A DNA stretch of 64,000 bases from Verrucomicrobiia bacterium (lineage in GTDB: Bacteria > Verrucomicrobiota > Verrucomicrobiia > Opitutales > Cerasicoccaceae). The notes beneath the pieces were generated by a model. That model did not search any database. It saw only the letters and a program-made list of their open reading frames with translations, and was not told the origin of the DNA. Position numbers and translations under genes: made by a program. The stretch spans positions 248,001-312,000 of the forward strand of contig JAUIHT010000006.1 in assembly GCA_030432235.1 (NCBI GenBank). Reading direction: 5' to 3'. Positions 15,229-50,612 of the stretch are shown here, piece by piece (within the stretch, counting starts at the first letter, position 1; the number at the start of each line of letters is the position of its first letter).

Positions 15229-15416
15229 CCGGTAGAGGTCTGACAGTTATATGATTTGTCCTGCTGGAGTGCAATCTGAATGGCTCCATATGGATAGCCC
15301 GTGTATGACTGAACATGGCCGTTCAACCCAAAGATGCGACCACACTGAACCTGTAAGAATCACTCACAGGCTTGAGCACATTGATTCTCGCCCGGAATTT
15401 GCTTTATGTCATACCC

Positions 15417-16181
15417 ATGTATCAGCACCGACATAGCAACAGGTTTCAGCGGAAATGCGGTTTTACGCTAGTGGAGCTGCTGACGGTGATCACCATTGTG
15501 GCGATACTGGCCGCGATACTGATTCCGGTTGTATCCTCGATGCTAGACTCAGCTCGAGCTACTCAAGCCACATCAAGAATGCGCAATTTTGGCAACGCCT
15601 CCTTTTTATTTAAAGCGGAAACGGGCTATTTAGCACCACATCGCATTGGCCGTGGGGGAAGTCAGCAATTATTCTTTTTACAGTACTTTGTCATGGACTA
15701 TCTTGGGTCAGATCCTCAAACCGCGAAAAGTCCTCTTGATGATTGGGAGCAGCAAGCTTTTGCCGGACTTCCGTTATACGATGAAGATGGAAGGAAAACA
15801 GACCAAGTGGTTAAGATTTCCTACGCACGAAATCGTGATTATCCTATTCTAAGCACTAAAATATTTATGCCAGGCAGCGTCAGCAGTAATGAGAACGCAA
15901 CTGATGCTGTAAAAGAAAACTTCTACCCGCCTAACGAGCAGTTGATAATAAACCCAGGAGATACAGCATACTTCCTTGAAGGCTATCCTTCAGCATTGGT
16001 TAAGAGAAGCGTAGCAGCCAATGGCAATTTTTATTATCAGAATGAAACAGCGATGCCAGTCTTCTTCTTTGACGGGCATGTGGAAATGGTGAAACGCGCT
16101 GAATTGTTGGGAGAAAATGGAGCGGAACCTTTGTGGTCCGAAGAACGGATCAATACTTTTTGGTTCGGGAAACCTGAGTGA
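15417..16181 (+). CDS. Type II-secretion-like pseudopilin with H-X9-DG end
   Basis: 254 aa from the ATG at 15417; a longer frame from 15372 adds residues ahead of the leader with no value. A short basic leader (MYQHRHSNRFQRKCG) ends at the prepilin peptidase site G|FTLVELL, with the conserved Glu at +5, and a hydrophobic helix follows (TVITIVAILAAILIPVV). The C-terminal part contains MPVFFFDGHVEMVKRAEL, the 'DG' motif common in planctomycete/verrucomicrobial pseudopilins. Such proteins occur in large numbers in these phyla as solitary genes beside saccharide loci. The role is unknown; a surface or periplasmic pseudopilus with glycan-related function is only a guess. Confidence 0.85.
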   Translation: MYQHRHSNRFQRKCGFTLVELLTVITIVAILAAILIPVVSSMLDSARATQATSRMRNFGNASFLFKAETGYLAPHRIGRGGSQQLFFLQYFVMDYLGSDPQTAKSPLDDWEQQAFAGLPLYDEDGRKTDQVVKISYARNRDYPILSTKIFMPGSVSSNENATDAVKENFYPPNEQLIINPGDTAYFLEGYPSALVKRSVAANGNFYYQNETAMPVFFFDGHVEMVKRAELLGENGAEPLWSEERINTFWFGKPE

Positions 16182-24751: not shown

Positions 24752-24886
24752 ATACCCTAAAAATTAGTTCGTAACTGAGAAGCGATTTATGGCTTTCTCG
24801 GAAAGAACAAACTTTGGCACGGCGACAAAGCCTGGCTTTTGATTGGGTAGTGCAACGCTACTTCTGATACCGCCATGATCCATGAA

Positions 24887-24916
24887 GGGACCGTTCCCAA
24901 AAGTGGTACGTTGTTA
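24887..24916 (+). promoter_or_regulatory. GGGAC-palindrome operator with -35-like box, site 1
   Basis: GGGACCGTTCCC (24887-24898; one mismatch from the perfect palindrome) is followed after exactly 12 nt by TTGTTA (24911-24916). It lies 61 bp before the GPH symporter ATG. The same arrangement recurs at six other places in the segment. Confidence 0.7.
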
Positions 24917-26618: not shown

Positions 26619-26634
26619 GTGCTCAATCCGCTTC

Positions 26635-26664
26635 GGGACCGCTCCCGTAGCAGCCATCTTGCCG
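26635..26664 (+). promoter_or_regulatory. GGGAC-palindrome operator with -35-like box, site 2
   Basis: GGGACCGCTCCC (26635-26646; one mismatch) is followed after exactly 12 nt by TTGCCG (26659-26664), with an AT-rich ATAAAAAT about 15-17 nt further on as possible -10. It stands in the 112-bp gap before the GH78 gene, 84 bp from its ATG, so the rhamnosidase may have its own regulated promoter inside the operon. Confidence 0.62.
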
Positions 26665-26730
26665 GAATTGTTGTAGGCATAAAAATGAGGGTTTTCGCCA
26701 ACAAGCAATGCCCAAGTGATTCATTACCAA

Positions 26731-33679: not shown

Positions 33680-36439
33680 TTACTTTACCCCTTCAAAAAC
33701 ATATAAGTAAATGGCCGCAGGGGGGAGGCCACGCTGATCGCCACCAGTCTTTTCGTTGACCTGCCAGGCACCATATTGGTTAAGCAATTGCTGGTTCGGA
33801 TTGATGGACTCGGACTCGATCTTGATCTCCTCTTCGTCTATATTGCTGGCTCCAGGAGCAGCCTCCAGCTTATACAACGTCACCTCTTTCGCTGAAGTAA
33901 AAGGCAATTTCAAAGAGACCTTGGAGTATCCATCTCCAAAATCCATACCATTGGCTTCTCCCTCAATTTTGCGTGAGATCACAAACACTGACCAACGGTC
34001 ACCTTCTTCCATCGCATAGACACCGACCAGCGGCAGCTCCTTGCTACCCTTTTTCTCGGTTTCATAGCTTGCCGTCGGCATCTGCACGGACTCCACCTGC
34101 ATGAGGTCGCCTCGCGCATAAAGATTGCGTAAAGTCATAGCCAACCAGGGGGCGTGCGCCCGGAACCCATCACTCTGCATGGTGTGGCTGGACCAGTATT
34201 CTCCCTGTTGATAGCCAAGATAGTCCTGATAGGTCCATCCTTGCAGGTAACTGCCGAGCCAGGCATCCAGCGCGGCGACTGCCATGGCCTGCGACTTTCC
34301 GTAGCGTTCGCCGGATTCTACAACACCGGGCATATCCCGAAATTTCCGGTCAGCGGTATAGCCACTCGGGCCGCCTTCATAAGCGATGATTTCATAGTTC
34401 ACTCCTTCTTCAGCCAGCTTTTGTTGAGCTTCATACATTAGCTGTTGATTGTCCTTAATGTCCATTTGGTAGCCCATTATAGTGGAAAAGAGCCCTTCGT
34501 TATTAAATTCGGTCAACGGATCCTGACGCGTCTCCCACTTGGGACCCACGTAATTGGCATGGCCGATGGACTGTGCCTGTGGAGACCGCTGAATCGCCTC
34601 TTCTGCGTAACCCTTGACGGCCCCATTGGGCAGAACGCGACCGGAATAGTTTCCTCCCAGGTTAAAGTGGACTTTCTGGTCCAGCTGTTCGCTGTTCCAA
34701 TAAGGGCTGCTTTTCATTTGGTCTATCAGGTAATCACTGAATAGACCATACTCCGCTCCGCCTTGATGAATAGCGCCGTATATAGCAAAACCAATCCAGT
34801 CCTCGACCTTGGCATTATGCCAAGTCTCGTTACCCAGCTCTACGATTATCTCTCGAAACTCATCGGTCCATGGCGTACCGTTTTCACCCCGTTGCACATA
34901 GCGCATGTATGCCCAAGGCTTCGTCTCCGGAGTATCCTCGGCCGGGTCATAGGGAGCCCCCATATACTCGATAAAGTCTCTCCAGTCTTGCTCATCATGC
35001 ATCATGTGCTGAATCACGATGTGGGGCACCATCCGCGTCTCAGGAGAGTCCCCAGTCGCCAAATCAAACATTAACGCCTTCGGCAGGGTCATCTCCTGGT
35101 TTTGGCTGCGAATAGCGGTGCGCCAAGCCGGCCGTATCTGACTGCTCCCATAGAGGCTAAGTAAAGAATCCATGGTCAAATCGCGGTCGAGTACCCATAT
35201 GCGATGTGAGCCTTTGATGCCTGTCTCGGGTTGGGTATCCAGCAGCCCTTGCAGCATAACCGGATCCGCGGTATAAGTGACCTCAAGCTCTTCCTCTGAA
35301 TCATAGCGGAACAGGCGAGCATTATCCATCCAGAGTTTTCCGGGGCCGGTAAAAGAAAATGCCGGGCCGTAGTGCATCGCATCTATAGGGCGCTCTGGAG
35401 CAATGAAATCATAGGCATATTTGGCCCATTCATTTTTTACCGAAAAAGTGGAATGGATATCCTGGTGGCCCGGTGTTTTTTGAGGTGAAATGAAAAACGT
35501 CACCTGTCCCCCATCTCCCAGGTCCTCCTGTTTCATCCAGGCCTCAATACGGTATTTTTTACCGGGCTCCAGCTGAGTATAATAGAGGCTTTCTTTGCCC
35601 TTATCCGTTCCGATAAAGCACCTTTGCTCGATAGTGACGGGTCCGGCAGGCACGTCGATAAGCATACACGAGTTACCTGGATCAATCATGCCCGAGGGAG
35701 CATCACCCTCATAATCATAAAAGGAAAAACGAACATCATCATTATTGGTTTTCCAGTACCATATGGGACGGTCCTTGGGCCCCTGAATCGCACGCACACG
35801 TTCATGAACCCAATTCATATCGAATTCGCTCAAATCCTTTTCCAATGCAATGTAATCAAACTCCTTCAATTCCGGGGAATCAGAGGAAAGATATACGCGA
35901 AGAGGCTTTTTACCTGCGGGCGGCTCATCAACGACCCAACCCCCGTTGGGGAAGCCTTCTTCGCCCGCCGGGATGACGGTAGTTTCTCCGACCAAGATGA
36001 CATGATCCGCATCATCAATATTAGCAAATCGAGGACGGCCTTCCATGACATCAAGCGGATTCCCGTTCTTATCTACGATGCGATAAATACGCACCTTGGC
36101 TCCACTCAAAAAGCCATCATTCCAAAGCTTATACCATGAGGTATCCGCCAGGCCATCCAACTCAAAGGAGCGCCCTTCGACATTCACTGCATGATGCATG
36201 TTCTGCCAGATCGGATGCTCATTTCCGGCATTTTGAATAAAATTGCCAGCCGCAGACTGAACGCCACGCCCACCGAAATGATTCGCCCCTAGTGGCGGGA
36301 CCTTGGCGGATGGCCGCACCACCTCCGACGTCACCACAACCTTGGCTTCGGCATTGGGGTCGGATTGGGCATTAAGCCCCGAAACAAGGGACAGAGCCAA
36401 GGTAATGGCTAAAGCGTGGAAACGAGTTGTATTCTTCAT
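33680..36439 (-). CDS. Secreted clan GH-A-like glycoside hydrolase with carbohydrate-binding module
   Basis: 919 aa. Signal peptide 1-24 (MKNTTRFHALAITLALSLVSGLNA). Region 235-380 reads like a CBM4/9-type jelly roll (GNSCMLIDVPAGPVTIEQRCF...KYRIEAWMKQEDLG...GKLWMDNARL). The catalytic part has the clan-A acid/base motif VELGNETW (Glu538) and a probable nucleophile in IIAYEGGPSG (Glu688), spaced about 150 residues as in GH39/GH51-like barrels; a C-terminal beta domain follows. The CAZy family cannot be fixed by eye; an arabinofuranosidase-like or related exo-enzyme is possible. It diverges from the esterase at 36783, with palindromes serving both directions. Confidence 0.7.
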   Translation of the reverse strand: MKNTTRFHALAITLALSLVSGLNAQSDPNAEAKVVVTSEVVRPSAKVPPLGANHFGGRGVQSAAGNFIQNAGNEHPIWQNMHHAVNVEGRSFELDGLADTSWYKLWNDGFLSGAKVRIYRIVDKNGNPLDVMEGRPRFANIDDADHVILVGETTVIPAGEEGFPNGGWVVDEPPAGKKPLRVYLSSDSPELKEFDYIALEKDLSEFDMNWVHERVRAIQGPKDRPIWYWKTNNDDVRFSFYDYEGDAPSGMIDPGNSCMLIDVPAGPVTIEQRCFIGTDKGKESLYYTQLEPGKKYRIEAWMKQEDLGDGGQVTFFISPQKTPGHQDIHSTFSVKNEWAKYAYDFIAPERPIDAMHYGPAFSFTGPGKLWMDNARLFRYDSEEELEVTYTADPVMLQGLLDTQPETGIKGSHRIWVLDRDLTMDSLLSLYGSSQIRPAWRTAIRSQNQEMTLPKALMFDLATGDSPETRMVPHIVIQHMMHDEQDWRDFIEYMGAPYDPAEDTPETKPWAYMRYVQRGENGTPWTDEFREIIVELGNETWHNAKVEDWIGFAIYGAIHQGGAEYGLFSDYLIDQMKSSPYWNSEQLDQKVHFNLGGNYSGRVLPNGAVKGYAEEAIQRSPQAQSIGHANYVGPKWETRQDPLTEFNNEGLFSTIMGYQMDIKDNQQLMYEAQQKLAEEGVNYEIIAYEGGPSGYTADRKFRDMPGVVESGERYGKSQAMAVAALDAWLGSYLQGWTYQDYLGYQQGEYWSSHTMQSDGFRAHAPWLAMTLRNLYARGDLMQVESVQMPTASYETEKKGSKELPLVGVYAMEEGDRWSVFVISRKIEGEANGMDFGDGYSKVSLKLPFTSAKEVTLYKLEAAPGASNIDEEEIKIESESINPNQQLLNQYGAWQVNEKTGGDQRGLPPAAIYLYVFEGVK

Positions 36440-36546: not shown

Positions 36547-36636
36547 TATGGGGCAACCACCATACATCCGACATTCGTTATCATATATAAATGCTGGTTT
36601 ATCTATAGGCATAGTTAGGTGTTTCAGCCTCATAAG

Positions 36637-36666
36637 GGGACAGGTCCCAATATGCCTTCTTTGACC
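36637..36666 (+). promoter_or_regulatory. GGGAC-palindrome operator with -35 box, site 4
   Basis: GGGACAGGTCCC (36637-36648) is followed after exactly 12 nt by TTGACC (36661-36666); TTCATT 17 nt further on is a weak -10. The ATG of the esterase is 134 bp after the palindrome. Confidence 0.75.
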
Positions 36667-36782: not shown

Positions 36783-37574
36783 ATGCCACAATTTGCCCCA
36801 TTTAAGGCCACACTTCCAAGTGGGAGCACTAAAGCCAATCCGATCATCACTCCTTATTTACCCGACACACCCGGATACGATGGTCTTGCCCTGATAGTAT
36901 TCCCCGGTGGAGGTTACAACATTCACGCAGAACATGAGGGAAAAGGTTATGCCGATTTTTTTGCCGGCGAAGGAATTGCCAGCTTTGTTGTCGAATACCG
37001 CCTAGGGCGTCAAGGAGCAAGACACCCTGAAATGATTGAGGATGCTTTTGCTGCCATTACTACCATACGCAATCGCGCTAAGGAATTTGCAATTAACCCG
37101 CAAAAGATAGGTGTTATCGGCTCCTCAGCCGGCGGCCACCTGGCGGCCCATGCTTGTGTTGCCTGGCGAGAGTATGAGGAACCGGTGGCCCTACGTCCTG
37201 ATTTTGGAATCCTGTGCTATCCGGCTATTCAATTGAAAGGCCCCTATGCAAGCAAGGGTTGTGCAAGAAATCTTTTAGGCGAAAATCCCAGTGAGGAAGC
37301 TTTAGCGAGCGTTTCCATCATGGAGCGAATAGACGCGGAAACCCCTCCATGCTTCCTCTGGCACACCCAAGCTGACCATGCCGTATCCGTACAACACAGC
37401 TTGGGGCTTGCCTCGCAACTGCAGAAAAATCAGGTGCCTTTCGAGCTGCACGTATACACCAGAGGCGGGCACGGACTGGGAAGAAACACCGCCCTGGCCT
37501 GGGATGATGACTGCCTGAGATGGCTGCGCGAATTTACCGACGGGCGCATGCATCGATCAGCCACCTCAGGATAA
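36783..37574 (+). CDS. Alpha/beta hydrolase, acetyl-xylan-esterase/BD-FAE-like
   Basis: 263 aa, no signal peptide. HSL-type oxyanion motif VFPGGGYNIHA (about 38-48), nucleophile elbow VIGSSAGGHLAAH, catalytic Asp in LWHTQADHAVSV and His in TRGGHGLG complete the triad. Such cytoplasmic esterases deacetylate xylo-oligosaccharides or other acylated sugars. It is divergent from the secreted GH-A enzyme and preceded by palindrome site 4, so it probably works on products of that enzyme. Monocistronic as far as visible: 239 bp separate it from the next gene. Confidence 0.87.
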   Translation: MPQFAPFKATLPSGSTKANPIITPYLPDTPGYDGLALIVFPGGGYNIHAEHEGKGYADFFAGEGIASFVVEYRLGRQGARHPEMIEDAFAAITTIRNRAKEFAINPQKIGVIGSSAGGHLAAHACVAWREYEEPVALRPDFGILCYPAIQLKGPYASKGCARNLLGENPSEEALASVSIMERIDAETPPCFLWHTQADHAVSVQHSLGLASQLQKNQVPFELHVYTRGGHGLGRNTALAWDDDCLRWLREFTDGRMHRSATSG

Positions 37575-37712
37575 TCAATAATTTCAAGCCCAGACCCAAT
37601 CAACAGCCCACCCAATGTGCCCACTTGTTTTTTCGCAACCCTAGGCAATATCCATCTGAAGCACGAAGAAACTAGTTCCGCAAAAACATCCAAGATAACA
37701 AACGGAGGCCAC

Positions 37713-37765
37713 GGGACAGGTCCCGCCGAGGGCCTTTTGACAACCCAGGTCCGTTTCGAGTTAAT
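37713..37765 (+). promoter_or_regulatory. GGGAC-palindrome operator and sigma-70 promoter, site 5
   Basis: CGGGACAGGTCCCG (37712-37725) has the core at 37713-37724; exactly 12 nt later comes a perfect TTGACA (37737-37742), then 17 nt, then GTTAAT (37760-37765), the best complete promoter of the set. The PEP-CTERM start is 48 bp after the -10. The geometry places the palindrome centre near -53, an activator-like position. Confidence 0.8.
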
Positions 37766-38956: not shown

Positions 38957-38991
38957 CAAGCCTTTCGGGACCTGTCCCGAAAGGCTTGACT
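38957..38991 (+). promoter_or_regulatory. Extended GGGAC palindrome (site 6): operator and/or terminator
   Basis: Perfect 15-bp inverted arms CAAGCCTTTCGGGAC (38957-38971) and GTCCCGAAAGGCTTG (38974-38988) separated by CT, with the core GGGACCTGTCCC at 38967-38978. TTGACT starts 7 nt after the core (38986-38991), 31 bp before the LacI start; GTTAAT lies at 39007-39012. It could terminate the PEP-CTERM transcript (a weak T-rich tail TCTTTAT follows) and serve as the autoregulatory operator of the LacI gene. Confidence 0.65.
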
Positions 38992-39021: not shown

Positions 39022-40053
39022 ATGTCTTCAACCCCTACAATACGGGATTTGGCCAAAACGCTGGGCCTGGGAAAATCAACCGTACAACGCGCCTTAGCGG
39101 GGCGACCGGGAATATCAAAAGCGACCAGCGAGCGGGTCAATCACGCCGCAACCAAACTCGGCTATCGCCCGGATCCCTTATTTTCATCGCTTGCCATGCA
39201 GCGATCACGCTCGCGCAAACAACCGTTGCCGGTGGCATATCTGATGAGCAAAGAAGTCCGTGGCGGACTAAACCCCATCAAGGAAATTAAGGATGCCGCA
39301 TCATTGCTTGGCTACAAGGTGGACTTCATTGATCCAGATGAGTTCGGCGCCGGTAAACGACTCATGCATGTGCTTTACCATCGTGGCTATGTCGGTGTTA
39401 TCGTTGGAGCGGTCGACCCCTCATGCCACGACTCTATACTGCATAACCCCCAGTTTCCCATCGTATGTTGCGGGCGTATGGACCCACTACCGTTGCATAC
39501 CGTGCAGCCCGATATCACCAACCACGTCCGGGTGGTCTGGAGGCATATTCGCGAGGCCGGCTGGAACCGCATCGGCCCTGCCATCGCTCAACACGATCCC
39601 CCCATTGAGGACGATTTTGACCGGTTGGGGGCCGTTTTGGCCTGCCAACAGAATCTACGCGTAAAGGACCGCGTCCCCCCGCTACTCAGTACCCACCGTG
39701 ACTATGCCTCACTCAATGCCTGGTTCAAAAAATATGAGCCCGAGGCAGTCCTTGGTTTTTCGCCTGGCCAATACTACGCCCTCGCCCAAGCGGGGATAGA
39801 CATGTCCCGCATTGGCTTTGCCTCATTACACGCCTTTCATAATAATCTCGATCCTGATGTGGCCGGCACGGAAGAATTAAACGATTCCGTTGCGCGCGAA
39901 GCGATCCACTTACTCGACCATTTTATCCGCAGACGGGAAATCGGCATTCCCAAGGAACCGTTGCACCTGCTGATCCCCGGACGGTGGAAACCAGGCGCTA
40001 CCCTTCCCGAGAAATCTTCGCTCGGGACAGGCAGCAAAGCACCCCTTGCATAA
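39022..40053 (+). CDS. LacI family transcriptional regulator (candidate master of the palindrome regulon)
   Basis: 343 aa. LacI HTH at 6-27 (TIRDLAKTLGLGKSTVQRALAG) with hinge helix ATSERVNHAATKLGYRPDP, then a periplasmic-binding-like sensor (PVAYLMSKEV, YVGVIVGAVDP, IGFASLHAFHNNLDPDVAGTEELNDSVAREAIHLL). The recognition helix is KSTVQRAL instead of the usual TVSRVL, so unusual operator choice is plausible. It is flanked by palindromes at 38967 and 40076 and sits centrally among all copies, which makes it the best candidate for the factor binding them. Ligand unknown; probably a sugar from the enzymes encoded nearby. Confidence 0.9.
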   Translation: MSSTPTIRDLAKTLGLGKSTVQRALAGRPGISKATSERVNHAATKLGYRPDPLFSSLAMQRSRSRKQPLPVAYLMSKEVRGGLNPIKEIKDAASLLGYKVDFIDPDEFGAGKRLMHVLYHRGYVGVIVGAVDPSCHDSILHNPQFPIVCCGRMDPLPLHTVQPDITNHVRVVWRHIREAGWNRIGPAIAQHDPPIEDDFDRLGAVLACQQNLRVKDRVPPLLSTHRDYASLNAWFKKYEPEAVLGFSPGQYYALAQAGIDMSRIGFASLHAFHNNLDPDVAGTEELNDSVAREAIHLLDHFIRRREIGIPKEPLHLLIPGRWKPGATLPEKSSLGTGSKAPLA

Positions 40054-40075
40054 GTCTTTCAGTTGGCTATAGAGG

Positions 40076-40105
40076 GGGACCGGTCCCCTTCTGGATGGGT
40101 TGATG
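40076..40105 (+). promoter_or_regulatory. GGGAC-palindrome operator with -35 box, site 7
   Basis: GGGGACCGGTCCCC (40075-40088), a perfect 14-bp palindrome with core 40076-40087, is followed after exactly 12 nt by TTGATG (40100-40105). No good -10 is seen. It lies about 138 bp before the giant pseudopilin gene, in the 170-bp gap behind the LacI gene. Confidence 0.72.
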
Positions 40106-40225: not shown

Positions 40226-43200
40226 ATGTGCCAGATAGCCTCAATTCACGATTGCTATAGGAGCCAGTCAAAACTTAAAGCCAATTCAAAGCGAGGCTTT
40301 GCTTTGATCGTCACCCTTGGCTTGCTCGCTTTTGTCGTCCTGCTGATTATGTCACTGGCGACCTTAACTCAAATTGAAATACAAACAGCCACCAAATCGG
40401 CTCAATTAGCAACCGCTCGCAATAATGCATTGCTAGGGCTCCAAATCGCGGTTGGCGAACTGCAAAAGTATGCAGGTCCCGACCAACGTGCAACGGTCCC
40501 TGCGACGACTGTATATCCCGAAAAGGATGTCACTACGGCAACCGGAGAGCTTTTTGACATGTATCGGGACAATGCCAAAACAGCCTTACGCAACACCTAC
40601 CTGACCCCTGCCGAAAGGGATCTCTGGGAAACGGACATACGCGATTGGTGGAATACCAGCAATCGCAACCCATATTGGACCGCCGTTTACGACAGCAGCT
40701 TACGGCGCGATCCACAAGTCGGCCCCCACCAATACGGAGAGCCAAAACGCAATCAGTTACCAGTTTGGTTGGTAAGCGGCAATGAAAGCCTCAATTTCGA
40801 TCCCAAGACGGATACGAGCTATCCTGACGGCTATTTCACGCCGGATATCGATGTGGCCACACTGGCTACCAGTGCGGATGATGTCATCAATATTGTCGAT
40901 GGTGCCGCACCGAAGGCAGAAGAATCGGTAGATGGGCTCCAAGGACAAGTCCAAGTCCTGCGCCAGCCCATACAATCAGCCTCACCGCATGGCGGAGGTC
41001 ACTATGCCTACTGGGTTGCCGATGAGAGCACAAAGGCAAACATCAGCGTAAACGACCCGTATTACAACAACTCGAATCCGACCTCCAATGAATACCGCAA
41101 TCGCCTCCAGGCACCCTTGCGCAGCGGATGGGAAGGCATTGAGGGGCTTGATGACGCAAGCGACGCCATAGCCATTAATAGTCCGTTATTCGAACAGGCA
41201 ATTTCCAAAGGACAGCTTTCCCTTATCGACCCTACATTGGAAGAGCCGATTAAAAGTAACTTTCATCATCTGACCACTCACTCGAAAGGCCTTTTTACGG
41301 ATACCGCCTTGGGTGGGTTAAAAAAAGATCTGACAACTTTTCTTGAAGGCGCCGGCAACAGCTTTTCCCTCAATGACACCATTGCCGATCGCAATCTCTA
41401 CGCCACCAACGACCCACGATTTGGCGCAAATAATTCTGGTTTCCCGGTCATAAGCTCCGGCACAAACCTGGCGACTTGGAAACAGGTAAAAGACTGGTAC
41501 GACACCACCGGTTCTTCTGGCTCAATGTCCGTCGCACCTGGACACGCCCCCATACTCGCAAACTATCGCGTTTTCTATGCCTATACCCATGAAAACGGCA
41601 TCATTCAGGTGCATTTTCTTCCCTGCGTCAGCCTATGGAACCCTTACGACGTGGCTCTCGACAATACCACCTATGAACTCAAGTGGAGGCACAACTTTGC
41701 CGTACAACAATTCGGTGTTGTTACCGAAGGGATGGCGGACCCGACCCCAGCCAACTACAGTGATGGTACGATTGTTCCAAATTCAGGCGATGGACCCCAA
41801 TACCTGCTGCATCAGCTCACCGGCTTGGATTGGTACAATCAGAATTCTTCAGGGTTCAAAGAATTTTACACGAACTGGCAGTCAAATGAACTCTGGACTC
41901 CGGAAAAAGATGCCAAGCACCCCGCCCACCCTAGTTATACGTTTGCTCCTTTCGACCGAGGAAAATCATTGCCTGACCCATCCTCTCCAGAAGCCACTTG
42001 GGTGACCTACAAGTTCACCACCGCTTTTGAGCCTGGACAGGTCAAAGTCTTCACCATCGGCAAAACCCAGAAAGTAAGTGCTTCGGCCCTCCACGAAGGT
42101 ACTGATGTCGTGCAGCTCGCCAACGGCTTTGACCCCGATTTCCCAGCCTCATACTATTTTGACATTGCGCAAATAGTCGACCCATCGGGGACTGGAGCGG
42201 CCACCCCAGATGCCACGCACACGATGCGAATTTTCGCATTACTGCATAGTGTCTCTACTCCCAATACCATGTCGATGGAACTCTTCGCCAATGGCAATAG
42301 TCTTTGGCGAAATGAATTCAACGGCCAACCCGGAAATCCAGTCAATGGCTCTGTCATGAAGAACACAGATATGGAGGCGGTGAGTGATGACCCTTCTACC
42401 TGGAGGATTATTAGTGATCGTCTCAATTGGGAAGGTCTGCCCAAGGGGGAAACCACCGGCAACCGTTCCTCACCTCTCAACTTTCTCTTTCACGGCATAC
42501 TTCAGCCTTTTGCGCTGAAACAACAATATATTTACCGAAGTAATCTGGGTTTCCGAATGGACAATACTTCAAACTATGTGCGCGCCTTTGCTCTCTACAA
42601 TATTTCCGCGCCCAGTATGGATTTAAATAAGAATCTTGAGGGTTCACGTGCTGACTATGCCGGGAGCAACACTGACAAATATATGGTCAACCAACTCATG
42701 AAAGCGGAGAGCTTATTGACAGGTACCGCTTCAGTCTACCCGCGATGGGACAACAATCAGGCCGAAGCTGCTGGCTCCGATACCGAAGGTTTCGCACTTA
42801 TTTCATGGACCAAGATGGATGATCTCAATAATGCAGGGCTTACCCGTATCCCCTTTCGCAAGGCCCACCGCACCGATGCTGATTTACTCTCCCTTGGCCA
42901 GCTTCAACAGGCAAATCTGTCACTGCTGGCTTGGGAACCGACCTACCCGGTAGGCAACAGTGAAGCATCACCCTATGTAGATCGTGCCAGCATAGCGGGT
43001 ATTGAATCCTATCCCGTAGGGTCAGCAAAATCGGATAGCTTCGGCGCCTTGCCCTCCTATTACCGCGAAGCTGGAGAGATGCCCAACGACTCCCAGAATC
43101 GTCAAATGGATGTTTCCTATCTTCTGAATGAGAACCTATGGGACCGATACTTCCTTTCCAGCATTCCACAATCAGGACCCCTCGTGCTCGATAATACACA

Positions 43201-44302
43201 GCGTCTGCCCAATTCACGCTATCGCTTCAGTGAAAGCCAAGACATCAGCACGGAGGATGTTCGGGATTTCGATATGAGTGCGGCCTATCTTGAAAACGCC
43301 GGCTCCTTTAATGTAAACTCAACATCGGTGGAAGCATGGAAGGCACTTCTCACCGCCTTCCGTGGTTTGCGCTTTCCCAATGATGACCGGACCGGTGACG
43401 CTATTACCAATGCCATGCCGGTTGCTTTCACTTTAGATCCAGTCGACGGTAATATCGAATTCACGTTCGAAGATAAGGACGATCAGGCCATAGGGGCCGC
43501 TCCCTCAGGCGTAGGTCGCGATTATACTAAGCTATTCACTGGTTTCCGCTATCTTACGGATGACATGATTGAAATGTTGGCAAAACGGATTGTGGATGAA
43601 ATCCGCCTGCGTGGCCCATTCTATTCGATGAGCGACTTTGCCAATCGGCGCTTGGTGTCACCAGACCGCTCCAACAACGAATGGTATACAGCTCGCACCA
43701 GTAACCAGTCTCCCGATGCCGGCTCCACCATCACTCACACCTACGGACTCAGTGCTTCTGGCTATGATCCCTTTGTTGGCATGGCCGGCATTAATGGTGC
43801 TTTGCAGCGAGCAATTAATCTTTCCGGTATCAACGGAGGCGTTAACTATCCCCACTCCTCCACGGACACTAATGATCGTACCTTCCGGCTCGAGCTCGAC
43901 GAAACAAAGTTTAATAACAAAACCAATATTCCCATGGAAATCCTGCCTCAAGTCGGCCATTATCTGGACACTGAGCATCTGGCAGGTGTGCCAATCGGAG
44001 AGGCTGGCTCCCTGCTTTCTCATGCCCCAGGCTTTGTCACCCAAGCCGATATCCTTTCCATGATTGGACCCGCGTTGACTGCCCGTGGGGACACCTTTCT
44101 AGTCCGCAGTTACGGCGATGCGGTAAACCCCCTCACCGGTGAAACCACCAGCCGAGCCTGGCTTGAGGCAGTTGTGCAACGCACTACCACGCCTGTTGAG
44201 CCCAGCGGAAGCACGGGGATTGACCGCTTTACACCCGCCGACGAGTTTGGCCGACGCTTCGTCATCGTTTCCATGCGCTGGTTATCCGAGGAAGAAATTT
44301 GA
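40226..44302 (+). CDS. Verru_Chthon cassette protein A-like giant pseudopilin
   Basis: 1358 aa from the ATG at 40226. A 23-residue basic leader ends SKRG|FALIVTLGLLAFVVLLIMSL, a prepilin-like transmembrane helix lacking the +5 Glu; it continues ATLTQIEIQTA...ARNNALLGLQIAVGELQKYAGPDQR, which matches the start of Verru_Chthon cassette protein A, a 1200-1500 aa family confined to Verrucomicrobia. The body has motifs met in that family (HYAYWVADESTKANI, VSLWNPYDVAL, RGPFYSMSDFANRR). The function is not known experimentally; assembly into a pseudopilus-like export machine is supposed. In complete cassettes it stands with pilin-like proteins B-D, which are missing here; only a small secreted partner follows. 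Confidence 0.78.
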   Translation: MCQIASIHDCYRSQSKLKANSKRGFALIVTLGLLAFVVLLIMSLATLTQIEIQTATKSAQLATARNNALLGLQIAVGELQKYAGPDQRATVPATTVYPEKDVTTATGELFDMYRDNAKTALRNTYLTPAERDLWETDIRDWWNTSNRNPYWTAVYDSSLRRDPQVGPHQYGEPKRNQLPVWLVSGNESLNFDPKTDTSYPDGYFTPDIDVATLATSADDVINIVDGAAPKAEESVDGLQGQVQVLRQPIQSASPHGGGHYAYWVADESTKANISVNDPYYNNSNPTSNEYRNRLQAPLRSGWEGIEGLDDASDAIAINSPLFEQAISKGQLSLIDPTLEEPIKSNFHHLTTHSKGLFTDTALGGLKKDLTTFLEGAGNSFSLNDTIADRNLYATNDPRFGANNSGFPVISSGTNLATWKQVKDWYDTTGSSGSMSVAPGHAPILANYRVFYAYTHENGIIQVHFLPCVSLWNPYDVALDNTTYELKWRHNFAVQQFGVVTEGMADPTPANYSDGTIVPNSGDGPQYLLHQLTGLDWYNQNSSGFKEFYTNWQSNELWTPEKDAKHPAHPSYTFAPFDRGKSLPDPSSPEATWVTYKFTTAFEPGQVKVFTIGKTQKVSASALHEGTDVVQLANGFDPDFPASYYFDIAQIVDPSGTGAATPDATHTMRIFALLHSVSTPNTMSMELFANGNSLWRNEFNGQPGNPVNGSVMKNTDMEAVSDDPSTWRIISDRLNWEGLPKGETTGNRSSPLNFLFHGILQPFALKQQYIYRSNLGFRMDNTSNYVRAFALYNISAPSMDLNKNLEGSRADYAGSNTDKYMVNQLMKAESLLTGTASVYPRWDNNQAEAAGSDTEGFALISWTKMDDLNNAGLTRIPFRKAHRTDADLLSLGQLQQANLSLLAWEPTYPVGNSEASPYVDRASIAGIESYPVGSAKSDSFGALPSYYREAGEMPNDSQNRQMDVSYLLNENLWDRYFLSSIPQSGPLVLDNTQRLPNSRYRFSESQDISTEDVRDFDMSAAYLENAGSFNVNSTSVEAWKALLTAFRGLRFPNDDRTGDAITNAMPVAFTLDPVDGNIEFTFEDKDDQAIGAAPSGVGRDYTKLFTGFRYLTDDMIEMLAKRIVDEIRLRGPFYSMSDFANRRLVSPDRSNNEWYTARTSNQSPDAGSTITHTYGLSASGYDPFVGMAGINGALQRAINLSGINGGVNYPHSSTDTNDRTFRLELDETKFNNKTNIPMEILPQVGHYLDTEHLAGVPIGEAGSLLSHAPGFVTQADILSMIGPALTARGDTFLVRSYGDAVNPLTGETTSRAWLEAVVQRTTTPVEPSGSTGIDRFTPADEFGRRFVIVSMRWLSEEEI

Positions 44303-44310
44303 GATATAGA

Positions 44311-45012
44311 ATGAAGTTAATCGCATATTCTCTATTTGCCTGTGCGCTGCTCGGTTATCTGTCAGCTGGTGCCGCCGAAATACCCGTGCGGAAAATCCAT
44401 GCCCTGACTTTGACCGACCAAAATCCAGAATTGTATTACCGTGACAGCAACGGCGAATACCAACGTTTTCATATAGGCAATATCCAACGAGGTCCGGAAT
44501 ACCTAGTACCAGCACTGAAGACATTACGTCTGTATATTCCGGGAGTCGACCAAGCTGGTAATTCCCTAATGAAGCCCGTGCTGGAGATTCCGATACCCAA
44601 AAGCGAAGGCATGCTGTTGCTGGTATTTTACTATGACGAATCCGGCCAAACACGCTATGAGCTTATACAGGACAATATCATCCGCTACCCCGCAGGCACT
44701 GTACGCTTCGTAAACCTTTCACCTGAAACAATATATTGCATCTTGGGAGAGGAACAAATCAAAGTGCCACCAGGCGAAGCTACTGATAAAGGCATTCTCA
44801 TCGACAATCCCCAGAGCTTTACCTTCACCTACGGATCCGTCCAGCTTGATGGTTCATTATACAAAGCACCGCTCAAAAAACTTCGGCTCCCCCACTCGGA
44901 CATGCGTCTGATGATACTTTTTTCCAGCCGGTATGAGCCCAACGGCGACCAAGCTCCAATTCTCAAGATCCGAGATGTTCGCATCTATGATCGCGTGACA
45001 CCGGAGTTCTAG
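44311..45012 (+). CDS. Small secreted protein partnered with the giant pseudopilin
   Basis: 233 aa from the ATG at 44311, 8 bp after the pseudopilin stop; a TTG 12 bp earlier overlaps that stop. Signal peptide about 1-22 (MKLIAYSLFACALLGYLSAGAA). The rest is beta-rich (HALTLTDQNPELYYRDSNGEYQRFHIGN, LLLVFYYDESGQTRYELIQDN, GTVRFVNLSPETIYCIL). No known catalytic motif. I cannot name the family; the operon position says it works with the pseudopilin, perhaps as a periplasmic partner. Confidence 0.75.
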   Translation: MKLIAYSLFACALLGYLSAGAAEIPVRKIHALTLTDQNPELYYRDSNGEYQRFHIGNIQRGPEYLVPALKTLRLYIPGVDQAGNSLMKPVLEIPIPKSEGMLLLVFYYDESGQTRYELIQDNIIRYPAGTVRFVNLSPETIYCILGEEQIKVPPGEATDKGILIDNPQSFTFTYGSVQLDGSLYKAPLKKLRLPHSDMRLMILFSSRYEPNGDQAPILKIRDVRIYDRVTPEF

Positions 45013-45107: not shown

Positions 45108-46613
45108 TTAAGCGGGTGCGATTCGCGGCATAGGCAAAATATCTTTAGCCATCTCAGCTTGGATAAATGATTGTAGAAGCCGCATCTTTACCTGTGAAAA
45201 TGCCGGATCATTCCAACGATTATGCAGCTCGTTTGGATCCTCTTTTAAGTCGTATAGCTCACCGCAGTCGAAAGCCCGGTAAACAGTGACTTTGTACCGG
45301 TCATCTATGTAGGTTCTCAGTTCGGTCATTCCTGGTTCGTGGTTGTTCTCAACCAATGTGTGATGACGAATAGCCTCGCATTTCCCTACCCACACCGACG
45401 ACTGGTCTACCCCGCTCATAAAGCGCGGAACCTCGACACCTGCCAATTGAAGCATGGTAACTGGCAGATCGACCAAGCTCTGGAGCGCCGTAGTGCGTGC
45501 CCCAGCCTCCACATGACCTGGCCAGCGTACAATCATGGGAACTTTAACCCCATCCTCATAATGAAAAGGCCCCTTAGCAGTCAGACCATGCTGACCGAAA
45601 TAGTGACCGTGGTCAGAGGTAAAAACCACCAAAGTGTTATCTTCCAGACCAAGCGCTTTTAATTGGTCTAAAATTCGGCCTATGTGCTTATCAACACAAG
45701 AGACCATTCCATAATAAACGGCGATATCCTTCATCTGTTCAGTCTCATCATGGCAATGACTCCTCACGCCATGCATCCACTTGCCATGAATTCCATAAGC
45801 TTCTTGATCGGGATTGGGGTCTTCGGACATCCGGTGAAATGGCGACCCATCGATATGCTCTCCGGAACGTCGATGGGGAATCGATAGTTTCTCAGGATCG
45901 TACATGGTGTCCCAAGGCTCAGGCACAAGATAGGACGGGTGTGGATCGAAGAAGCTGGACCAGAGAAAGAATGGCTGCTCGCTGTCCCGATATTGCTTCA
46001 AATAATGATTCGTACGTTCCGCGATCCAAGTATTGTAGTGAAACTTTTCGGGTATATTCCAACGGTGACGCTGGGCTTGCTGTGTTCCTGTCGGCGTGCG
46101 AAAACAATCGCGCCAATCCGTGAAACCCTTTTCCTCCATCCACAAGGCGTAGTGTTGTCCGACTTGCGCCTCATCGGTGTGATTACGGGCGAGTTCAAAA
46201 TCATCAAATCCGTAGAACGGCCCTTCATATTTTTTCCAAAATTCCAGATCCTGTAGTATCGGATAGGCTTCTAGCGATGAATATTCTTCCGTGCTTTTAA
46301 TAGGCTGAAAGTGTGCCTTCCCAACCAACCCGGTTCGGTACCCCTGCTCATGCCACACACCGTTGATGTTCGGTCGATCCTCCATCAATTTTGTCCCCAG
46401 CGAATAGGCACCATGCTGGCTCGGCCATTGCCCCGTCAGAATACTCGCCCGAGTTGGGGTGCATGTCGGATTTGGGCAATAGGCACGCTCAAACACCATT
46501 CCCTCTCTCGCTAGTCGATCCAAGGTCGGCGTATGAATCTCAGGATTATCAACCCCCAGGGTGTTCCAATGCTGCTGATCTGTTGTAATGAGCAAGATAT
46601 TAGGACGATCTTC
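45108..46613 (-). CDS. Type I (formylglycine) sulfatase, no signal peptide (1)
   Basis: 501 aa from the ATG at 46613 (MEDRPNILLITTDQQ); the frame extends 12 codons upstream (MDMEIDAYSSI), where nothing suggests secretion. Metal ligands are in ITTDQQ; the modified Cys is Cys52 in CTPTRASILTG (Thr replaces the usual Ser, still a valid C-x-P-x-R). Other blocks are GLVGKAHF, SFFDPHPSY and VVFTSDHGHYFGQHGL. The end LYDLKEDPNELHN is typical of choline-sulfatase/iduronate-sulfatase-like enzymes. Cytoplasmic location is inferred. It would desulfate an imported sugar; it needs a formylglycine-generating enzyme encoded elsewhere. Lone minus-strand gene between the pseudopilin pair and the C25-like gene. 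Confidence 0.92.
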   Translation of the reverse strand, partial: EDRPNILLITTDQQHWNTLGVDNPEIHTPTLDRLAREGMVFERAYCPNPTCTPTRASILTGQWPSQHGAYSLGTKLMEDRPNINGVWHEQGYRTGLVGKAHFQPIKSTEEYSSLEAYPILQDLEFWKKYEGPFYGFDDFELARNHTDEAQVGQHYALWMEEKGFTDWRDCFRTPTGTQQAQRHRWNIPEKFHYNTWIAERTNHYLKQYRDSEQPFFLWSSFFDPHPSYLVPEPWDTMYDPEKLSIPHRRSGEHIDGSPFHRMSEDPNPDQEAYGIHGKWMHGVRSHCHDETEQMKDIAVYYGMVSCVDKHIGRILDQLKALGLEDNTLVVFTSDHGHYFGQHGLTAKGPFHYEDGVKVPMIVRWPGHVEAGARTTALQSLVDLPVTMLQLAGVEVPRFMSGVDQSSVWVGKCEAIRHHTLVENNHEPGMTELRTYIDDRYKVTVYRAFDCGELYDLKEDPNELHNRWNDPAFSQVKMRLLQSFIQAEMAKDILPMPRIAPA

Positions 46614-47061
46614 CATAATGCTTGAATAAGCATCTATTTCCATGTCCAAAAGTCTAATAAAATCTTATCCTTAGGCACATTTTTAATAGAATTATTAAAA
46701 ATAACATAAGCCTCTATAATTATCAAAAATCAAATTCTTATACAGCCATACTGGATGCTTCGCTTTTAAGCCTAAAACAAAAGTAATTCCTTAATCACCG
46801 ACTCCCCAAAAGCCCAAATTACCGAGCCATAAATATGCCAAATTGACGCATAACAGCTAGGATTCGGGCTCAATAAATGCATAAAACTCGACAATACCCA
46901 GAATGAATCCGGTCCCGAAAATGGCCAATTGCTAAAACCGGATGGCAAGCCAATCTATTAGCTCTATTGCCCCCAATACAGACCCCAGAAAGGGTTAATA
47001 ACATTTTCTACGAATAAACAGAAACATATCGCTTCATTGAGCGTATATCTTTGTTATAGTT
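46614..47061. other. AT-rich divergent intergenic region, 448 bp
   Basis: Between the sulfatase and the C25-like gene. It is notably A+T-rich with short A/T tracts near 46680-46740. Apart from the degenerate palindrome at 46905 it shows no repeat, RNA or coding signal. Confidence 0.5.
46905..46934 (+). promoter_or_regulatory. Degenerate GGGAC-palindrome operator, site 8
   Basis: GAATCCGGTCCC (46905-46916) keeps the right half and centre of the palindrome (9 of 12 positions) and is followed after exactly 12 nt by TTGCTA (46929-46934). It lies 145 bp before the C25-like gene. The sequence alone would be weak; the kept 12-nt spacing makes it worth listing. Confidence 0.4.
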
Positions 47062-50000
47062 ATGTCTTGTATAACCCTTATACGGAAACAACTTAAGCTT
47101 GCTTATGTAATATTAGCAGCGCATTTAGTTATCGTAAACTCATCCTCAGCCAAGGTAGAGCGCGCTCTCCGCGTTGAAGGCTCTATCGCAACGGATGGCA
47201 CCAGCGTTACGCTGCAATGGTGGCAAGAGGAACCCGATGGCCCGGGCAATGTCACAATCTCCAGGCGCCTACTTGGTCAAACAGGCTCCGACACTTGGCA
47301 GTTTTTGGCCGATGTTTCGGCCGGAACCTCAGTATATACCGATAGCTCTACGGCACCCGGGACGGCCTATGAATACCAAATACTTCGCCCCTACACACCC
47401 ATAAGCGGTGGAGATAACCTTGAAGGCGCCGGAGGCTATTGGGCAACTGGCGTTGAGGTTCCCGTAGTAGAAAACCGGGGAATTACTCTCCTTGTTGTCG
47501 ACGAGACCATGGCCCCTGGCCTGGATGCCGAACTAAAACGCCTACAGTCCGATTTAAGAGGCGATGGCTGGGAAGTGACCATGCACCTCGTCCCTCGACA
47601 TGGCTCCTATACCGATGGACAAGCGCTAGCCCTAAAGGAATGGATAAAAGCCGAGGTCGCTAAAAATCCATCGACCCAACACGCTCTACTCTTAATTGGT
47701 CGCGTACCGATTGTAAAATCGGGTGCCGACAACCCCGATGGCCATAATTTAGTCGCCCATCCCACGGACCTCTTTTATGCCGACATAGACGGCCACTGGA
47801 TCGATGACAACTATCGTAGCGGCAACGTGCCAGGCGATGGAATCTACGACCATACTTTCATACCATCCACCTCGCCCACTGCATACTACTGGATTCATGA
47901 CGGGACGAATCGCATAGAGTTGTGGGTTGGGCGTGTTGATTTTTCTACGATGACGGCAGATCCTCGAGACGAAGTAACTATGCTCCGAGATTACTTGAAT
48001 AAGGACCATGCCTATCGTCAGGTAACATTTCCACACCCAATTCGAGCGTACTGGGAAAAAATGGCCTTCGACGTAAGTGAGACTGAAAGATTTGGCGTGC
48101 TAAATATAAGTGGCCCGGAAAATACAACCCAAGGCGTCCATGAAGGTACCGGCCAGGAAGAGCCTGCATTATGGGGTGTCGATTTCGGACATGCCGACGG
48201 CAGCCTCTATCCAGATTACAACATCCAGGCAATCTTCACCATCAATTTCGGCAGCCATAAACAAGAATGGACCTTATATAATAATCCCATGAGAGCAATT
48301 ATCGCGCAGCGGTGGTATGTACTCACTTGCGGTTGGGGGGTGCGCCCCAATTGGTATATTCACCATATGGCCTTAGGGAACCCTATCGGATACAGCCATT
48401 TTCGTACGGTCAATAATGGGTACATCCCCGCTGCATCTGTCCCGGAATACACTGTCGTCGATGATTACGGAAATCAATATGCGAATGCAGTGTGGATAAG
48501 CCTAATGGGCGACCCCACCATACGCGCTTTCATACCTGAGCCTCCCACAGATTTTTATGCCATACAGAATGGCGGCTCCGTTGAATTGAGTTGGGTGCCC
48601 TCACCTGCCGATGGTATAACTGGCTACAGGCTTTATCGAGCAGACACGCCTTCATCTCCATTTATCGCCTTAAATTCCAATGAGCTCATCACTAGCACAA
48701 GCTATACGGATACCGACCCGACTAGCGAAGCCATCTATATGGTCCGGGCCCAGAGACTGGAAAACGTCCATGCCGGATCATTTTATAATCTAAGCCAGGC
48801 GGCCTTTGCAAAAGCGGGAAACACTCCTCCAGTACCAGGCAACCCATTGCTCGTCCTCCGCTCAGCCCGATCCTTGGAAATATCCCTGCCCGCAAACGAC
48901 GCCGATGGCGACCCGCTGCTTATCAGCCGTGCCTCCGAACCTTCACACGGCAAGGTGGAAGGTACAGGAGAACATGTTATCTATACTCCCGCACCAGACT
49001 TCCATGGCGAAGATTCTTTTCGATACAGTGTATGGGATGGGACGGCTTTGTCTATCGGGACAGTAACGATTACTGTACTCGAACCAAGCTTACCACCGGT
49101 TATAGAATCTTACCCCGACTATGTTTCAGGCCCTGGCGGCTCTACTTTGCGACTGAAAGTTGATTATCAGGGAGATTTCCCGATGTCCTTTCAATGGTTC
49201 AAAAACGGAACGCCATTGAGTGACGGCAATGGGACCCTGGGCGCAAATACGAACGAATTGACCCTGACCAGCCCCGACTCTGGCGATACCGGCTATTACT
49301 ACCTCAGCCTGGTGAATCCAGTCGGCGTAACCAATAATTCCAGTTCACCGATTGCTCTCGATGTCTATGATGAAACCCCCGCTCAAGCGCTGATTTTACA
49401 CTATAAATTCGATGAAGAAACGGGAACCCTTATCAATGATAGCTCTCCCTCGGGAAACAACCATGGCACCACGCTATCCAACGCCGTTTGGACAAGCGAT
49501 GGATACTATGAGGGAGCAATAGGCTCTGCAGACCTCAGCGGCTACTTTGCAGGGTTTTCCCCCGAAAACCAAGAAGACCTCAATTTTGACCCCCGGGGAG
49601 ACAGCTACACGTTTTCAATATGGGCCAGAACCACAACAACAAGTGGATTCCGCTCGATTTTCAACAAGACGCTCATCACTCCTCGTCATCGCCAATTCCA
49701 AATCTCGACAAACTCCAATCCCAATTCGCTCGAGTTTTACAATGGAAATGTTCGCGGCTACCTGGATACCACAACGATTGGGAATCCTCTAACTAATGGA
49801 GAATGGCACCATATCGCTGCCGTCAATGGCTACGACTTCGAAAGTCAAAGCTGGCTTAGCCAGCTCTATTACGATGGCGACCTTATCGCGGAATTTCAAA
49901 CCGGCGACGCCGGAAAAAATAACGAACCCATTCTCATCGGGAAAAGCGGTCCCTGGAATGGCCAGATGGATGATTTCCGTATTTATCGCAAAGCCTTAAG

Positions 50001-50460
50001 CTCACAAGAGATTGAGGAGCTATACCTCGGAACACAGCCGAAAAGTTACACCTACTCCGACTGGGCCGATGCCACAAACAACCATGGCTCCCCAAACGCA
50101 ATCGACCCCTTTACCGGCTTATCGAATCGTCTTCTCTATGCCCTGGACATCACAGCCCCTGATAATGGTGTAGCCTCCATGAAACCCCTATTAATGACCC
50201 ACTACGATGCAACGGGAGCACCATCCCTACATTACAATTTCAGGGCCAGAAAAAGGGCTGATGACCTTCGTGTGACTATCCAAACCAGTAATGACCTGGA
50301 ACAATGGATGCCTCTACTAATCGACGGAGAAACAGCACTGGAAAGCATTCTTGAAGCAGATCCAGACGGGGATGGTTCCGCTGTCCTCAAATCAGTCACC
50401 CTGCCCTTGGCGCCGAAAGACAGTCCCCAATTCCTGCGCCTCACTGCCGAACAACGCTGA
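47062..50460 (+). CDS. Secreted multidomain protein with C25 peptidase-like and LamG domains
   Basis: 1132 aa. Signal peptide about 1-30. Domains: FN3-like 33-110; a gingipain-like (C25) caspase-fold region about 140-490, with NFGSHKQEW (His399), YVLTCGWG (Cys423) and the family-typical SLMGDPTIR (480-488); FN3 495-585; a cadherin/Big_9-like domain about 595-685 (NDADGDPLLI...YTPAPDFHGEDSFRYSV); an Ig-like domain 690-775; LamG/concanavalin-like 785-1000 (LHYKFDEETGTLINDSS, GEWHHIAAVNG, GQMDDFRIYRKALSSQEIEELY). The His/Cys pair suits a cysteine peptidase, but the exact dyad is an inference. No C-terminal sorting signal is present. It may degrade or bind glycoprotein outside the cell. Preceded by degenerate palindrome site 8. 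Confidence 0.72.
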   Translation: MSCITLIRKQLKLAYVILAAHLVIVNSSSAKVERALRVEGSIATDGTSVTLQWWQEEPDGPGNVTISRRLLGQTGSDTWQFLADVSAGTSVYTDSSTAPGTAYEYQILRPYTPISGGDNLEGAGGYWATGVEVPVVENRGITLLVVDETMAPGLDAELKRLQSDLRGDGWEVTMHLVPRHGSYTDGQALALKEWIKAEVAKNPSTQHALLLIGRVPIVKSGADNPDGHNLVAHPTDLFYADIDGHWIDDNYRSGNVPGDGIYDHTFIPSTSPTAYYWIHDGTNRIELWVGRVDFSTMTADPRDEVTMLRDYLNKDHAYRQVTFPHPIRAYWEKMAFDVSETERFGVLNISGPENTTQGVHEGTGQEEPALWGVDFGHADGSLYPDYNIQAIFTINFGSHKQEWTLYNNPMRAIIAQRWYVLTCGWGVRPNWYIHHMALGNPIGYSHFRTVNNGYIPAASVPEYTVVDDYGNQYANAVWISLMGDPTIRAFIPEPPTDFYAIQNGGSVELSWVPSPADGITGYRLYRADTPSSPFIALNSNELITSTSYTDTDPTSEAIYMVRAQRLENVHAGSFYNLSQAAFAKAGNTPPVPGNPLLVLRSARSLEISLPANDADGDPLLISRASEPSHGKVEGTGEHVIYTPAPDFHGEDSFRYSVWDGTALSIGTVTITVLEPSLPPVIESYPDYVSGPGGSTLRLKVDYQGDFPMSFQWFKNGTPLSDGNGTLGANTNELTLTSPDSGDTGYYYLSLVNPVGVTNNSSSPIALDVYDETPAQALILHYKFDEETGTLINDSSPSGNNHGTTLSNAVWTSDGYYEGAIGSADLSGYFAGFSPENQEDLNFDPRGDSYTFSIWARTTTTSGFRSIFNKTLITPRHRQFQISTNSNPNSLEFYNGNVRGYLDTTTIGNPLTNGEWHHIAAVNGYDFESQSWLSQLYYDGDLIAEFQTGDAGKNNEPILIGKSGPWNGQMDDFRIYRKALSSQEIEELYLGTQPKSYTYSDWADATNNHGSPNAIDPFTGLSNRLLYALDITAPDNGVASMKPLLMTHYDATGAPSLHYNFRARKRADDLRVTIQTSNDLEQWMPLLIDGETALESILEADPDGDGSAVLKSVTLPLAPKDSPQFLRLTAEQR

Positions 50461-50582
50461 ATATAATAGATGCAGGACTTATTCTCATAAAATTATATTC
50501 GCCACATATATCCGTCTACCACCCTCCTGGAGTTGAACTGGAACTGAGCAAACAGCGGATTTGGTCAAAGAATCAAATACCT

Positions 50583-50612
50583 GGGACAGGTCCCAAATGC
50601 TCGTCTTTGACA
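50583..50612 (+). promoter_or_regulatory. GGGAC-palindrome operator with -35 box, site 9
   Basis: TGGGACAGGTCCCA (50582-50595), core 50583-50594, is followed after exactly 12 nt by a perfect TTGACA (50607-50612). The -10 is unclear (TGATGC at 17 nt). It lies 117 bp before the PEP-CTERM gene at 50712. Confidence 0.75.

Follow-up and report, generated by a model that had tools for sequence, protein, structure and literature searches.

The window, a 64,000-nucleotide stretch (contig C11, positions 248001 to 312000) of a 5.72-Mb verrucomicrobial genome, carries a pair of genes, A and P, among genes for sugar degradation (Table 1). Both open reading frames lie where the original prediction had placed them. 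A begins with an ATG at 40226 and encodes a protein of 1358 amino acids, whose N-terminus is of the prepilin type (KR-GFALIVTLGLLAF): a leader of around 24 residues precedes the sequence GFALIVT, and the glutamate at position +5, which is present in most pilins, is lacking. The ATG of P follows 8 bp behind the stop codon of A, and the two genes therefore probably form one transcription unit. The 919-amino-acid secreted protein encoded at 33680-36439 contains an ELGNETW stretch, spotted by eye, which resembles clan GH-A glycosidases, and perhaps represents an undescribed glycosidase family.

Table 1. Genes and predicted regulatory sites around the A-P pair (positions within the window).
Feature	Position	Strand	Evidence and remarks
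Weak operator-like site	24886..24899		Weight matrix, 13.3 bits; 73 bp before MFS sugar transporter gene 24960
Near-consensus predicted operator	26634..26647		Weight matrix, 18.0 bits; 81 bp before alpha-L-rhamnosidase gene 26716
Alpha-L-rhamnosidase-type enzyme	26716..29535	+	PF17389; orthologues (815, 843 bits) beside A in L100, L102
Large secreted protein, probably glycosidase	33680..36439	-	Without a Pfam match; also found next to A in L099 and L102
Predicted operator palindrome	36636..36649		Between divergent genes 33680-36439 (-) and 36783-37574 (+)
Carbohydrate esterase-like alpha/beta hydrolase	36783..37574	+	BD-FAE, PaeX, AxeA1 matches
Predicted operator palindrome	37712..37725		Upstream of PEP-CTERM gene 37814
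Predicted operator palindrome, putative autoregulation site	38966..38979		55 bp upstream of LacI gene
LacI-family regulator, likely operator owner	39022..40053	+	PF00356, E 2.2e-9; site 55 bp upstream
Predicted operator palindrome	40075..40088		Upstream of A-P
A, predicted giant GspK-type minor pseudopilin	40226..44302	+	ORF; NCBIfam sub-cut-off matches; 35 genomic copies; L144 fold
P, secreted 233-aa partner, signal peptide and two Ig-like beta-sandwich domains	44311..45012	+	ORF; AlphaFold; VIA-align
Sulfatase	45108..46649	-	PF00884
Large secreted multidomain protein (Laminin_G_3, Ig, Big_9)	47062..50460	+	Relative in L103
Predicted operator palindrome	50582..50595		Upstream of PEP-CTERM-like gene 50712

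The palindrome upstream of A, GGGGACCGGTCCCC at 40075-40088, belongs to a site type, GGGAC(C/A)(G/T)GTCCC, of which five copies are found inside 14 kb. Its core GGGACNNGTCCC occurs ten times in the 5.72-Mb genome, five of these occurrences being located in the window at 36637, 37713, 38967, 40076 and 50583, and none of 200,000 simulated sets of ten random positions contained five that were clustered so tightly. Outside the window, exact palindrome sites are found at the level expected by chance genome-wide; a match at C34:24185 (21.7 bits) sits within a coding region and was rejected as fortuitous. One and the same palindrome precedes several genes as well as the regulator's own gene, the arrangement of a LacI regulon. 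The palindromes are predicted to be local LacI operators, with the product of the adjoining LacI gene as the likely regulator, and A and P are very probably switched on together with the neighbouring sugar-degradation genes. The proposal that A and the saccharide genes are under common control is thus borne out by palindromes upstream of both; a sigma-70 promoter was not found at the operator. Such operators are not a general feature of A genes, as perfect 14-bp palindromes are present upstream of 2 of the 31 A genes tested, compared to 4 of 230 other genes, so that the other copies, if they are controlled in common at all, have to rely on different signals.

A had been described as a protein of the Verru_Chthon cassette A type. 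This holds for N-terminal residues 24 to 82 (59 residues), the only part that matches TIGR02600, but the score of 25.1 bits is far under the cut-off of 332.3. The GspK model NF037980 matches the N-terminal 90 residues only (22.3 bits, cut-off 130), and the GspK-like proteins of the type II secretion systems (T2SS) encoded in the same genome reach 67 to 89 bits with this model, likewise under the cut-off. When profiles were compared, A resembled E. coli GspK and the GspK-like proteins of the same genome at the N-terminus only, and this weak link between the sequence profiles counts against a kinship with GspK. No Pfam family matched A or P. A sequence search of the PDB yielded a match of A to the alpha subunit of DNA polymerase III around RGPFxSLxDF, which was dismissed as chance.

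The structure of an A protein was modelled with AlphaFold for the relative L144 from Cerasicoccus maritimus NBRC 105382, in which P adjoins A (1059 residues, 42-row alignment; pTM 0.84, mean pLDDT 76). The model aligns with four XcpX/GspK chains with Z-scores of 12.0 to 12.4 over 227 to 262 residues (up to 262 of 295), spanning model residues 8 to 1059, and the next structural neighbour follows at a Z-score of 5.2; in a Foldseek search, GspK (3ci0_K) ranked first, with a weak match that was not significant. A long N-terminal helix, the pilin beta-sheet and the inserted alpha domain, all elements of the GspK fold, are found in the model. Since XcpX/GspK chains are its sole strong neighbours, A is predicted to be a GspK whose fold is split by a very large insertion, as modelled on the L144 relative rather than on the A protein of the window.

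The AlphaFold model of P (pLDDT 83.3, pTM 0.78) shows two beta-sandwich domains besides a signal peptide, and it most closely resembles the tandem extracellular domain of PepT peptide transporters (PepT2; VIA-align Z-score 12.8, 182 residues, 3.5 Å). Such an arrangement of two domains is common and gives no hint of a ligand. Secreted-looking proteins of 223 to 272 amino acids are encoded directly after A in 28 of the 35 copies of A in this genome, often overlapping it, and 18 relatives of P were detectable in the same genome by single-sequence search; a single-protein scan for close relatives of P found none. In other genomes, P adjoins A in 49 of the 80 best relatives. The partner has indeed no family name, as had been noted, but its pairing with A is common and not specific to this locus. 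The GGGACNNGTCCC operator was not found in the loci of the close relatives L099 to L103. P is absent beside A in L100 to L103 and is therefore not obligatory for A, which counts against a role of the pair in export as proposed below. At L132 (7882-14296), a Verrucomicrobiia genome contains a full D-B-C-A-P cassette, in which D-, B- and C-like pilin genes are followed by A and then P. P therefore seems to extend the four-gene Verru_Chthon cassette by a fifth member, as yet without a name; the genome of the window keeps just the last two of the five.

The genome encodes 35 full-length, intact A genes, and the other copies are 25-31% identical to that of the window; on plasmids, no A gene was found. 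All 35 possess a prepilin-like GF(A/S/V) motif without Glu5, and an alignment of the family contains around 40 invariant columns, with both ends and a central block conserved and the greatest variability around 500-850 and 1200-1250. None of the 35 loci encodes a pilin of the GFxxxE type (B to D) beside A, and the separation from B to D, which had been regarded as a peculiarity of this locus, is shared by every copy. LacI genes are located within 10 kb of 19 of the 35 A genes, compared to an expectation of 6.5 genome-wide and of 10.0 when only the same contigs are considered; sulfatase genes are less strongly associated with A than LacI genes are. Among the 103 genes nearest to A, 11 encode LacI regulators and 5 sulfatases, whereas random-region controls contained 2 LacI genes in 103, and GH1, GH2, GH4, GH42, GH78, GH94 and sulfatases are in the top list for the neighbours of A with none among the top 25 of the controls. 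The predicted co-occurrence with saccharide loci is thus reflected in the enrichment of LacI, sulfatase and glycoside hydrolase genes near A. That about half of the 35 copies lie near a sugar-type regulator suggests that A is a component of export or uptake which can be exchanged for different polysaccharides.

Across 53 genomes of the order, the relation between the copy number of A and the number of LacI genes is weak once genome size is allowed for, which counts against the reading of A as an export tip. A comparison of A copy number with both LacI and sulfatase numbers in these genomes was likewise weak and did not give concordant results inside families; the sulfatase counts are first-look candidates, with no more than 35 scored in each genome. 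The genome of the window also encodes 38 PulG-like pilins (frames of 213 to 300 amino acids), including one at 15372-16181 of the window, and 15 of these lie within 5 kb of a LacI gene, compared to 3.8 expected. With the same distance of 5 kb, 17 LacI genes have only A as a neighbour, 15 only a PulG-like pilin and one has both (Fisher p 0.02). LacI loci thus seem to carry either a PulG-like pilin or a giant A, and seldom both.

In a tree built on the C-terminal part of A, the 35 paralogues are scattered among A proteins of other families, forcing at least eight changes. Because of this scatter, the set is regarded as old and partly traded rather than as the product of recent duplication. The A protein of the window groups with L099 and with L100 to L103 (Kiritimatiellota and another PVC sequence). 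Proteins of the window locus have orthologues in 4 of these 5 loci, compared to 0 of 75 loci of other clades, none of which contains an orthologue above 100 bits (p = 3e-6). The orthologues include those of the 919-amino-acid secreted protein (242 and 248 bits in L099 and L102) and of the 1132-amino-acid protein encoded at 47062..50460 (312 bits in L103), and the alpha-L-rhamnosidase orthologue adjoins close A relatives in Kiritimatiellota, in line with the suggested link to a rhamnose-type locus. With 4 of 5 against 0 of 75 loci, one particular kind of A stays with one particular enzyme set across phyla, and a clade of A that is tied to a fixed set of enzymes shows the behaviour expected of a substrate- or cargo-specific part. 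L101 (4910-14605, Kiritimatiellaeota bacterium B1221) contains two adjacent A genes for proteins of 1575 and 1571 amino acids. Here a member of the A clade of the window has been duplicated in tandem in another phylum, and the genes around the pair are housekeeping rather than sugar genes.

Two complete T2SS operons with the gene order G-H-I-J-K-L-D-E-F are present in the genome, each with its own GspK-like gene, together with additional genes for GspE/PilB and PilT-size ATPases. The second operon (L204 7459-11676) encodes a giant secretin GspD of 1405 amino acids, compared to 837 amino acids in the first operon, which might be adapted to large tips. Since both operons have their own GspK, A would be an extra tip without filament genes of its own, and the A genes give the impression of orphans that encode exchangeable tips besides the ordinary GspKs. 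No pilin adjoins any of the 35 A loci, so a shared machine would be needed, and the simplest account would be that A borrows the resident one. Verrucomicrobiota consume sulfated methyl-pentose polysaccharides. We propose, tentatively, that A is a locus-specific, sugar-induced pseudopilus tip that exports the enzymes of its locus, a reading for which we would claim a reasonable chance but not yet an even one. A saccharide, probably rhamnose-containing and sulfated, would cause LacI to leave its operators, whereupon A and P would be made together with the enzymes of the locus. The prepilin peptidase would then cleave A behind the glycine in its KR-G-FAL motif, and A would cap the pseudopilus of the housekeeping T2SS machinery, thereby replacing the ordinary GspK. 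The large inserted domain of A, aided by the periplasmic Ig-like P, would serve its own locus only and would most likely select or dock the secreted enzymes of that locus for export across the outer membrane. That sugar derepresses the genes, that A assembles into a T2SS pseudopilus and that it acts in export are all inferred. Given the GspK fold and the two T2SS operons, export of the locus enzymes is at least as likely as the binding or uptake of polysaccharide. The T2SS export of alginate lyases proposed for Verruconatronum, where a PulG-like pseudopilin belongs to an alginate-induced operon (PMC13274419), is a precedent in favour of export, as is the topping of the T2SS tip by XcpX/GspK (PMC6211770). 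However, a tip of 145 kDa may be too large for normal passage through a secretin, and the PilT-size ATPases would allow a type IV pilus as an alternative host, which counts against the placement in a T2SS.

The same ATPases would fit an inward movement, which we consider possible but rather doubtful. In this reading, a selfish uptake, A would bind glycan at the end of a retractable pilus similar to type IV, and polysaccharide chains would be drawn up to the outer membrane or across it and so reach the periplasm, where P would act as a receptor. A precedent is given by MUL2, a conserved pilus-based glycan attachment system in Akkermansiaceae, which also take up labelled fucoidan (PMC13174399). 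Furthermore, Verrucomicrobiota loci lack SusCD, and how giant glycans or enzymes pass the outer membrane without it in this phylum is an open question (PMC8857213). The variability of A is greatest in the insertion, as would be expected of a substrate-binding part; however, a clear carbohydrate-binding fold is not seen in the insertion (best Z-score around 5), the fold of P is common to many beta-sandwich proteins with no sugar site seen, and GspK-type tips belong to secretion pseudopili.

An improbable alternative takes the lack of adjacent pilins at face value: A would join no pseudopilus, would be anchored in the inner membrane and would hold the periplasmic enzymes of the locus together with P, its GspK fold being merely inherited. 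The very large ectodomain of A and the nature of P as a separate secreted beta-sandwich protein would suit such a scaffold, but all 35 copies have kept the prepilin-type motif, and the L132 relative lies directly downstream of D-, B- and C-like pilins, which speaks for an assembly that includes pilins. That A is the functionless remnant of a decayed four-gene Verru_Chthon cassette, as the absence of B, C and D might suggest, is highly implausible and contradicted by 35 intact frames, around 40 invariant columns, the operator in front of A and the neighbours that it keeps in different phyla.

The idea could be extended, with considerable caution, to a general one: many polysaccharide loci of Verrucomicrobiota and Kiritimatiellota may each induce their own GspK-type tip (A, usually with P), all of which would be served by one shared secretion or pilus machine. 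If true, a single machine would be re-targeted for each glycan, an arrangement that would correspond to the SusCD pairs, one per locus, which are missing from these phyla. Now that a GspK fold, a partner and an operator can be named, along with a candidate for the shared machine, the hitherto nameless proteins of the cassette A type become a testable part of the answer to how the outer membrane is crossed. The T2SS uses one fixed tip for all cargo, and an exchangeable secretion tip would, to our knowledge, be new for this system. A search of mainly open-access literature found no mention of Verru_Chthon. Substrate-induced small pseudopilins in such loci are already known; what appears to be new are giant cassette A-like proteins as GspK-fold tips, which number in the dozens, form a pair with P and travel with specific enzymes.

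Among known systems, A shares with GspK/XcpX (3ci0_K, 6utu_C, 9a1f_T), the protein that tops the T2SS tip (PMC6211770), an N-terminus without Glu5 and, in the L144 model, the whole GspK fold. However, A is around four times longer owing to its large internal insertion, its sequence matches the profile at the N-terminus only, and A genes are orphans in sugar loci, many per genome, without an adjacent GspG-J operon. With Verru_Chthon A (TIGR02600), it shares the N-terminal 59 residues, its length and, in the L132 relative, the position behind D-, B- and C-like pilins, but members B to D of the cassette (TIGR02598, TIGR02599 and TIGR02596) are not found near A, which is followed by P. In Verruconatronum alginivorum, an alginate-induced operon contains a PulG-like pseudopilin with 67 homologues in the genome, and T2SS export of alginate lyases has been proposed (PMC13274419). 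Like A, these pseudopilins exist in many copies, lie in substrate-induced loci and have spread partly by gene transfer; however, they are small GspG-type pilins, whereas A is a giant GspK-type protein. Finally, MUL2 of Akkermansiaceae resembles what is proposed for A in being a pilus-type apparatus of the envelope that is connected with the use of glycans in Verrucomicrobiota (PMC13174399), but it is a single locus with PilM and an archaeal-type pilin, in contrast to the dispersed, multi-copy A-P pair.
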